This document shows positions 2-4,520 of a stretch of DNA of 5,526 nt, in pieces; the first letter of the stretch is position 1; every line of letters starts with the position of its first letter. Below the pieces are notes generated by a model, which saw only the letters and a program-made list of their open reading frames with translations, was not told the DNA's origin and did no database searches. This stretch comes from a bacterium. GTDB taxonomy: Bacteria > UBP15 > UBA6099 > DSWB01. The stretch spans positions 1-5,526 of the forward strand of contig JAGUYV010000093.1 of assembly GCA_020061125.1 (NCBI GenBank), read 5' to 3'. Both the position numbers and the translations under genes were made by a program.

Positions 2-2029
2 CCCGTGGCCGTAACGGCGCCGGCCGCGGAGCCGCGCCGCGCGCAGATTGACCTCGCCACTCCGGGCGAGACCCTCAACCGCATCCAGATCAATGTGGCC
101 GCGGGCGTGGCCTACAGCCTGTACGCGGACGGCGCGCTGTTGCTGAACAGCACGGGAACCGGCGGCGTGCAGACGCACAGCGCCTTCGGCAGCGTGTCTC
201 CGAACTCCCTCTTCGTCCAGTTCCAGCCCGGCCAGGGCGGACCCGCCAGCGTGGCCTCCATCACCGCCTCGAATGTCGCTTCTCTGGGCGCGGCCGCCTC
301 CAGCTTCGTGGATGTCAACAACGACAACGACAACATGGCCACCTACACACTGAACACCGCGTTCGGCAATGTGGCCGAATCTTTTGACCAGTTGCAGATC
401 AGCGTCAAAAACGGACATCCCTATCTCATGTACTGGTCCGACGACGGCGTGGCCTGGAACCTGCTCGGTTCGAGTACGGGCACGGGCGCGGTGCAGTCCT
501 TCGGCCCGGCAACAGATTTGACCGTAGACACCTCTGGCGACGGCGACGCATACTTTCGCGTGATTCTGCGTTCGGGCGAAGACGCGGGCGCGGCCATCCT
601 CGCCGCCCCCGTGTTCACAAACCACATAGACCGCGACGGCGACGGGTTCCCGGATGTCATCGAGCAGACCGCCGGGTCCAGCCCCACAAACGGCCTCGCG
701 GTTCCGTCCTGGTCCCTGTCCGGACAGCCCGATGCGGACAATGACGGGTTTCTGGACCACTCAAACTATGACCGCATTTATGACAACACCTATCTGGCCT
801 CGAACAATCCGTTTGGCGGCGCGTGGGACGGCTCGGGCACGCGGCTCGGCAACCCTCTCGACGCCGCGGGCGGCCAGTACCCCAATCCCGGCGACACCGT
901 GAACCCGGTTCTGGTTCCTTCGAACACGGACACCGACGGCGACACCATCCCGGATCCCCTGGACCCGTTCGTAAACACGGCCGAATGGGCCACCTGGAAC
1001 GATGTTGAGGCCTGCTTCCGCGGCGGCTACGAGTTCTTCATCTCGAACCGCAGCACTCCGGACCAGCCCGCGCAGCGCGATATTTATCTCAAAACCGGGC
1101 CGGGCAGCTATCAGCTCGTGGCCAATCCGGGCGATGCCCAGAATCTCATGGTGTCCTGGGACGCATCCAAACTCGCCTACGAGTCCGGCGGGTCCATCTG
1201 GGGCGTGGACCTCACCACCACAAGCTGCGGAGGCTCCGGCGCCACCTTTTCCGCGCCCTATCTCATCGCCGCCGGGGGCAGCAACCCGAGTTGGTCCCCC
1301 TACAACGACCAGGTGGTCTACGACGACGGCGCAAACCTGCACATCGTGGATATCGCCTCGGGCGCGGACACCGTGATCGCGGCTGGAACAAACGCGGACT
1401 GGTCCCCGGACGGCGACAATATTGTTTACGAAAGCGGCGGCGGCCTGTGGGTCTACAACACTGTGGCCGAACGCTCTTTCGACACCGGCCTTTCAGGAAC
1501 GGGCGCCACCTGGAACACCGACGGCACCAAAATCTCGTTCCGCAACGGCAACGATGTGCATGTGGCGGACATTGACATCATCAAGACCCCATACGCAATC
1601 CAGGCCGGGGGCATGAACGGCGAATCCCAGCGCCTGGAACTGCCCTTGCCCGACACCCGCGCAGGCGTTCTGGGCCTTCTGGGCCTAACGCTCATCAACA
1701 ACGGCGCGGCGCAGTCCGCCATAGACACCGTGGACGCGGCCATCGAAAAACTGTCCGAAGCGCGCGCCCAGGCCGGCATTACTTACAATCAGTTGTCCGC
1801 GGCGCTCAACGATATCTACGCCTTCCGCATCAACATCGAATCCGCGCGCTCGCGCATCCAGGACGCGGACATGGCGCGCGAGGCATCGGACATGGCCAGG
1901 AACAACATCCTGCTTCAGGGGTCTTCGGCCGTTCTCTACCACAACACCAGCGCCATCGAGCAGGCGTCCCTGCGCGCCATTGACGATTCCCTGAAGTATT
2001 CCCTGTACGAGACACCGTCCAGCAGTTAA
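2..2029 (+). CDS. Flagellin (fliC-like) with large beta-module, calcium-repeat and beta-propeller insert; 5' partial
   Basis: Structural subunit of the flagellar filament, inferred from its C-terminus. Numbering here starts at the GTG at position 5, but the frame is open to the window edge, no ribosome site is visible and the flagellin N-terminal D0/D1 domain is absent, so the gene almost certainly begins upstream. Seen in order: two related beta-rich modules (about 14-95 and 115-195) sharing STGTGGVQ/STGTGAVQ; Asp-rich thrombospondin-3-like loops at 209-217 (DRDGDGFPD), 243-251 (DADNDGFLD) and 309-317 (DTDGDTIPD); PD40/TolB-like propeller blades at about 342-528, with SWD, SWSP, DWSPDG and TWNTDG motifs at 384, 429, 465 and 502; then a flagellin C-terminal domain at about 530-660. 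That domain shows IQAGGMNGE (532), DTRAGVLGL (550), RAQAGITYNQL (587) and SRIQDADMAREA (616). The insert occupies the place of the variable D2/D3 region. About 15 extra residues follow the usual flagellin end. The C-domain call is strong; propeller blade number is uncertain. Confidence 0.9.
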   Translation, partial: PVAVTAPAAEPRRAQIDLATPGETLNRIQINVAAGVAYSLYADGALLLNSTGTGGVQTHSAFGSVSPNSLFVQFQPGQGGPASVASITASNVASLGAAASSFVDVNNDNDNMATYTLNTAFGNVAESFDQLQISVKNGHPYLMYWSDDGVAWNLLGSSTGTGAVQSFGPATDLTVDTSGDGDAYFRVILRSGEDAGAAILAAPVFTNHIDRDGDGFPDVIEQTAGSSPTNGLAVPSWSLSGQPDADNDGFLDHSNYDRIYDNTYLASNNPFGGAWDGSGTRLGNPLDAAGGQYPNPGDTVNPVLVPSNTDTDGDTIPDPLDPFVNTAEWATWNDVEACFRGGYEFFISNRSTPDQPAQRDIYLKTGPGSYQLVANPGDAQNLMVSWDASKLAYESGGSIWGVDLTTTSCGGSGATFSAPYLIAAGGSNPSWSPYNDQVVYDDGANLHIVDIASGADTVIAAGTNADWSPDGDNIVYESGGGLWVYNTVAERSFDTGLSGTGATWNTDGTKISFRNGNDVHVADIDIIKTPYAIQAGGMNGESQRLELPLPDTRAGVLGLLGLTLINNGAAQSAIDTVDAAIEKLSEARAQAGITYNQLSAALNDIYAFRINIESARSRIQDADMAREASDMARNNILLQGSSAVLYHNTSAIEQASLRAIDDSLKYSLYETPSSS

Positions 2030-4196: not shown

Positions 4197-4265
4197 ATTT
4201 TCTGCATCCGCGGCGGCCCTGCACAGGGCGCGGCGCGGACACGCCAAGAAAGGATGCCACACCTC

Positions 4266-4520
4266 ATGGCGGTCACATTCGAAGACATTCAAACCATCGG
4301 CACGGTGGAAAAAAACAAGCGGGAAAAAATCCAGGTCAAGCTCGTGTCCGTAAACGGAAAGCCGTGCCTGGACTTCCGCATCTTTTTCAGCACGGCCAAA
4401 TCCGAGGACCTACAGCCGTCGGGCAAGGGCCTGTGCCTGACCCAGGAATGCATGAGCGAGCTTCTTCCACTGCTCGAACAGGGCCTCACCGAGCTGAAGA
4501 ACCTCAAACCCGGCGAATGA
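4266..4520 (+). CDS. Bacterial PC4/p15 coactivator-family nucleic-acid-binding protein
   Basis: An 84-residue protein resembling the single PC4 (p15) domain: charged beta strands from about 20-42 (EKIQVKLVSV, CLDFRIFF), the GKGLCLT turn at 53-58 matching the family's GxKGIxL motif, then an amphipathic helix at about 59-79 (ECMSELLPLLEQ). In characterised members the domain dimerises and binds single-stranded DNA or RNA through its beta ridge; the bacterial role is not defined here. Two in-frame ATGs exist. The one at 4266 is preferred because AAAGGA (4249-4254) lies 11 nt upstream, whereas the ATG at 4254 directly abuts AGG with no proper spacing and would add MPHL. It lies 123 nt downstream of cdsA on the same strand and ends before a probable terminator. 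Domain identification is from pattern only. Confidence 0.8.
   Translation: MAVTFEDIQTIGTVEKNKREKIQVKLVSVNGKPCLDFRIFFSTAKSEDLQPSGKGLCLTQECMSELLPLLEQGLTELKNLKPGE

Follow-up and report, generated by a model that had tools for sequence, protein, structure and literature searches.

A large composite flagellin with a TolB-type beta-propeller in its insert from a bacterium of the phylum UBP15

The window analysed in this study is the whole of contig C52 (5,526 bases) of the MAG G000, which comprises 4.12 Mb in 513 contigs and is 79% complete. Its first gene is read on the plus strand in the frame 2-2029 and encodes 675 amino acids. The contig begins inside this gene, so that the frame is open at the left contig edge; the 5′ part of the gene, and with it the N-terminal half of the protein, is absent from the assembly. 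The following features were assigned to the gene:

2-2029, plus strand: decorated flagellin, the C-terminal 675 residues of an estimated ~1000 (open frame; 45-47% identity to the complete orthologue in genome G002)
59-616, plus strand: tandem pair of beta-rich modules at residues ~20-95 and ~96-205, with a weak likeness to discoidin (F5/8 type C) (mutual resemblance; sub-threshold PF00754 in the orthologues)
623-985, plus strand: TSP3-like aspartate repeats, putatively Ca-binding, and a linker, residues ~208-328 (motifs; TSP3_bac in an orthologue)
1025-1579, plus strand: TolB/PD40-type beta-propeller segment, residues ~342-526, with five recognisable blade hairpins (sequence, internal repeats, AF2)
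1580-1597, plus strand: junction from the propeller to the flagellin D1-C strand (KTPYAIQAGG; alignment with orthologues that have the same junction)
1598-2026, plus strand: flagellin D1-C/D0-C (PF00700 match; PDB flagellins, E 1.5e-10)

The genes downstream are unrelated. They encode a glyoxalase-family protein on the minus strand, a cytidylyltransferase resembling CdsA and, at positions 4254-4520 of the plus strand, a small protein in which a PC4 (transcriptional coactivator p15) domain is matched with an E-value of 1e-7.

The original prediction, made from the window alone, had assigned the C-terminal end of the protein to the flagellins and had placed the junction with a preceding propeller at about residue 528. 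The assignment is borne out by the Pfam family PF00700 (Flagellin_C), which matches residues 574-645 (bases 1721-1936) with an E-value of 7.6e-15, and flagellins of the PDB align to the protein from about residue 499/529 up to residue 650. The junction also lies where it had been expected, as the strand YAIQAGG opens the D1-C half. At its D0-C tip the window protein diverges, with the PF00700 match reaching only position 72 of 86, which could point to poor or specialised assembly.

As the N-terminal half of the window protein lies beyond the contig end, a flagellin N-domain had to be sought in related genomes. G002, which belongs to the same order and is 97% complete, contains a complete orthologue of 1022 residues from stop to stop, which is 47% identical to the window protein over window residues 26-647. 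It combines, in one frame, the flagellin N-domain PF00669 (E 9.7e-23), TSP3-like repeats, PD40 and PF00700, and both of its end domains are close to the full profile length (PF00669, 12-136 of 139; PF00700, 1-86 of 86). G006 carries the same gene with PF00669 in frame and its 3′ end cut off, while in G001 a relative at a greater distance (32% identity) is present as a fragment at the edge of a contig. The orthologues of G002 and G006 differ in 3% of their residues at a dS of 0.34, and their dN/dS is 0.057 over 907 codons (N-domain, 0.054; propeller, 0.035). These low values show that the whole composite frame is under strong purifying selection.

A chimeric contig or a gene-fusion artefact could be suspected, as the MAG is split into 513 contigs and the contig of the window ends inside the gene. 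However, the propeller-flagellin junction is the same in G002 and G006, and three further propeller flagellins (see below) are intact in the MAG itself. A misassembly was therefore rejected, and the probability that is left to an artefact is negligible. Contig C200, a candidate for the missing front half of the window gene, was discarded as well, since its N-domain groups with the plain short flagellins. The end of C200 (L148:4067-4297) lies inside the N-domain of a flagellin gene of the short, near-identical type, and the assembly probably breaks there at repeats of such near-identical genes. The region upstream of the G002 orthologue showed no evident sigma-28 promoter; when complete genes were inspected, C422 was the only propeller flagellin with a fair sigma-28 site, with a score reached by 7% of shuffles. 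Viral contigs yielded no relatives.

The window protein shows TolB-type WSPDG...IVY repeats between residues ~342 and 526, and five blades can be counted. The base 1028, given as the start in the original prediction, is roughly where the first of these blades begins. In Pfam, the segment itself gave only a weak DPPIV_N match (residues 427-527), with PD40 below the cut-off; PD40 exceeds the cut-off in the orthologue and the paralogues. When residues 343-531 alone were compared with all PDB sequences, TolB was matched with an E-value of 2.9e-5, and the sole other match, far weaker, was DPPIV, which is likewise a propeller. A profile built from the tails of the window protein, the G002 orthologue and the paralogue C423 improved the TolB match to 3.1e-7. 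The segment is also internally repetitive, with a self-similarity score of 70 for residues 342-528 compared to 30 ± 5 in shuffled sequences (reached by none of 300 shuffles).

Structure prediction yielded consecutive four-stranded, TolB-like blades as well. Modelling of residues 325-675 with AF2 gave repeated antiparallel strands for most of residues 385-524, at block pLDDT values of 70-90. Foldseek (E 1e-7) and VIA-align (2ivz; Z 17.8, 183 residues, rmsd 3.8) both ranked TolB first for this model, the better of two. As this model was based on a three-row alignment that included one PD40 protein (L030) and might thereby be biased, an alignment-free model served as control, and TolB again came first for the part of it that is confidently predicted, residues 420-523 (Z 12.2, 104 residues, rmsd 2.6). 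This single-sequence model of all 675 residues was poor outside residues 427-520 (mean pLDDT 39), and residues 1-330 were for this reason not interpreted from it. With sequence, internal repetition and predicted fold in agreement, residues ~342-526 are assigned to a TolB-type propeller, as had been proposed. A pair of cysteines flanks the first blades at corresponding places, both in the window protein (residues 338 and 409) and in C423 (P0002; residues 677 and 759). Such a pair is unusual for flagellins, and a disulphide is possible.

The propeller had been predicted to occupy the variable region of the flagellin. It is indeed present there, but forms only the last part of a composite insert of ~700 residues, which begins upstream of the window. 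The preceding modules are TSP3-like and beta-sandwich-like, the latter with a weak likeness to discoidin. The two tandem beta modules resemble each other with a score of 63 compared to 27 ± 5 (reached by none of 1000 shuffles), and the PF00754 (F5/8 type C) match in the orthologues stays below the threshold (E 0.012). The window protein has the TSP3-like motifs DRDGDGFPD and DADNDGF (residues 210 and 244), and DTDGDTIPD was read directly near residue 310; in an orthologue, TSP3_bac is matched with an E-value of 0.003. Residues of about 190-330, which include these putative calcium-binding motifs, are the best conserved part between the window protein and the G002 orthologue (about 65-66% identity), while the flagellin C-domain reaches 35%. 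As much of the insert is thus better conserved than the flagellin C-domain, it is not a freely varying region.

In the orthologue family, the order between D1-N and D1-C is a possible first blade, TSP3-like repeats, the tandem beta modules, further TSP3-like repeats and five blades. The candidate blade on the N-terminal side has a score that about 5% of shuffles reach. It may close a ring like that of TolB in this orthologue family; if so, the propeller would have six blades, with the TSP3/discoidin part nested inside it.

Besides the window gene, the MAG encodes three complete propeller flagellins. C423, a frame of 1027 residues, has a flagellin N-domain and 14 DxDxDG motifs, together with a propeller of the PD40 type and a flagellin C-domain that is weakly matched. 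C487 (619 residues) contains a flagellin N-domain (E 2.6e-29), five PD40 stretches (E 1.1e-54), which by eye appear as seven repeats with a spacing of ~44 residues, and a flagellin C-domain; against the PDB it matches both flagellins and TolB with E-values below 1e-28 (TolB, 3.8e-29). C422 (586 residues) has a divergent propeller between its flagellin N- and C-domains. For C487 and C422, a search of the phylum's six other genomes yielded no close counterparts. A single clade of propeller flagellins was not rejected (AU p 0.56 and 0.63), and several independent origins are not claimed.

The propeller flagellins are part of a large set. The incomplete genome G000 has 21 PF00669 matches, probably including at least one FlgL, and the other six genomes of this small phylum have 7-16 each. 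The flagellin genes of G000 number about 20 (e.g., L046, L047, L048, L049-L055 and L149-L153), among them plain short flagellins of ~290 residues, a kind that is present in the phylum. Ten complete flagellins of G000 other than the window gene have inserts of at least about 170 residues, the probable FlgL being left out. The export gate protein FlhA is encoded in five of the seven genomes of the phylum and was not found in the window's own, 79% complete MAG. The excess of flagellin-like genes would fit a protein that is merely homologous to flagellin, is secreted through the flagellar export gate and serves in a matrix or biofilm instead of building a filament. The divergent D0-C tip points the same way, as do flagellin-homologous proteins of Vibrio, which are excreted for biofilm formation (PMC6692518). 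The orthologue, however, keeps both helical domains at near full profile length, and this alternative is regarded as unlikely.

Counterparts of several insert-bearing types are spread over different genera of the phylum. A VWA domain lies in the variable region of flagellins from G000, G001 and G006 (L049:2876-4495, L051:1921-3450, L129:464-2212 and L130:1973-3601). Related giant flagellins of 923-1025 residues occur in four genomes (L050:420-3494, L060:4397-7165, L061:106-2874 and L127:1202-3973), and their insert of ~650 residues matches no Pfam family. In G003, G004 and G006, there are flagellins 432-442 residues long (L125, L120 and L121) whose insert weakly matches DUF2135. The sibling giants are in line with a purely mechanical insert of the kind suggested for giant flagellins, consisting of outer domains that thicken or stiffen the filament and bind no ligand; a precedent is provided by giant flagellins of more than 1000 amino acids, which form thick filaments and have no known second function (Thomson et al., 2018; PMC6248924). 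Yet the insert of the window family does not consist of one packing domain but mixes folds of kinds which bind elsewhere (propeller, TSP3, VWA among the inserts), and it is under strong purifying selection throughout. A mechanical role alone is accordingly given about one chance in five, the same as the secreted protein.

The insert might also be an enzyme on a propeller, such as a lyase, a sialidase or a peptidase. It counts against this explanation that propellers of the PD40/TolB type generally serve as scaffolds for binding. Neither the HExxH motif nor the sialidase Asp-box SxDxGxxW (sialidase being a propeller fold, too) occurs in the five propeller flagellins tested (P0001-P0005), Pfam returned no peptidase catalytic domain for the window protein, the orthologue or the paralogues, and the propeller is not accompanied by a hydrolase domain. 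There are, on the other side, weak DPPIV_N matches in several of the propellers, a likewise weak match of an oligogalacturonate lyase model in C487 and the known enzymatic inserts of flagellins (Eckhard et al., 2017; PMC5595980). On balance, a flagellinolysin-like enzyme appears very improbable.

Insertion of a domain at the variable site of flagellin is already known. In Eckhard et al. (2017; PMC5595980), flagellinolysin is described as a metallopeptidase inserted in the variable region, and 61 domain types are reported from flagellin variable regions, with vWFA found 21 times and Sialidase 10 times (Table 1). The statement of the original prediction that no propeller-bearing flagellin had been described is therefore a little too strong with regard to the ten Sialidase database hits in that table; of the TolB/PD40 type, no described case was found. 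In literature searches, the titles and abstracts of the few hits contained no description of a flagellin with TolB, PD40 or a beta-propeller; a TolB/PD40 entry among the 61 domain types is possible. Surveys covered 385 further genomes, mostly from other families, and, with the C487 propeller flagellin, 10 and 398 genomes of two other phyla. They yielded propeller-only matches or nothing, and no other flagellin-propeller fusion was seen; as the large surveys scored the best three candidates per genome at strict thresholds, they do not imply absence elsewhere.

Like flagellinolysin (PMC5595980), the window family has a domain inserted between D1-N and D1-C, at the same site, but this is a TolB-type propeller with TSP3 and discoidin-like modules and without HExxH. 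The Sialidase and vWFA flagellins in Table 1 of that paper share with it a propeller-fold or adhesive domain predicted in the variable region, with VWA also being present in G000; they are database hits, whereas the flagellins described here contain TolB/PD40 propellers without Asp-boxes, carry TSP3 and occur as several kinds per genome. The giant flagellins of Thomson et al. (2018) are similar in their size of about 1000 amino acids and in having large inserts in place of D2/D3, but the inserts characterised in that work are DE/DX regions which are specific to flagellins and contain no known domains. TolB (PDB 2ivz, 1c5k and 4r40) and other PD40 propellers agree with the window segment in blade sequence and fold. 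In contrast to the flagellin insert, TolB occurs free in the periplasm, has an N-terminal domain of its own, for which the orthologue gave no match, and has Pal/TolA as partners.

Flagellin subunits with both end domains are exported unfolded and added at the filament tip, with their central part facing outwards. By analogy, the N- and C-terminal helical domains of the window family would pass unfolded through the type III channel of the flagellum and become packed in the core of the filament, while the insert of ~700 residues, with its TSP3-like repeats, discoidin-like modules and TolB-type propeller, would fold outside the cell, at the surface of the filament. The adjacent chain ends of a propeller would fit between the two D1 strands. 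Most likely, the decorated subunit would share the filament with the plain flagellins of ~290 residues that the same genome encodes, and the filament would thereby present binding domains to surfaces, polymers or other cells. We consider this reading, a large flagellin subunit which displays its insert on the surface of a mixed filament for binding, to be reasonably probable. The occurrence of several decorated flagellins in this uncultivated lineage suggests that their filaments also serve as binding surfaces. More tentatively, and with somewhat less than even chances, the filament might be a multi-receptor display organ, in which up to ~20 flagellins per genome, about half of them with distinct inserts (four different TolB-type propeller flagellins, VWA, TSP3-discoidin and unassigned giants), are combined in a single filament or in several, with which the cell would sense its surroundings or hold on to them.

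The following would apply if the filaments of these bacteria bear propellers and other binding modules by the hundreds to thousands. Large propellers would have to pass the narrow channel of the flagellum in an unfolded state and take up their fold outside, and such natural examples would be useful for the engineering of filament display. The window family would also add to the few flagellins in which a domain encodes a second function. For these bacteria, the flagellum would be an adhesive or receptor-bearing organ as well as part of a motor, and their flagellin genes would form a display repertoire.
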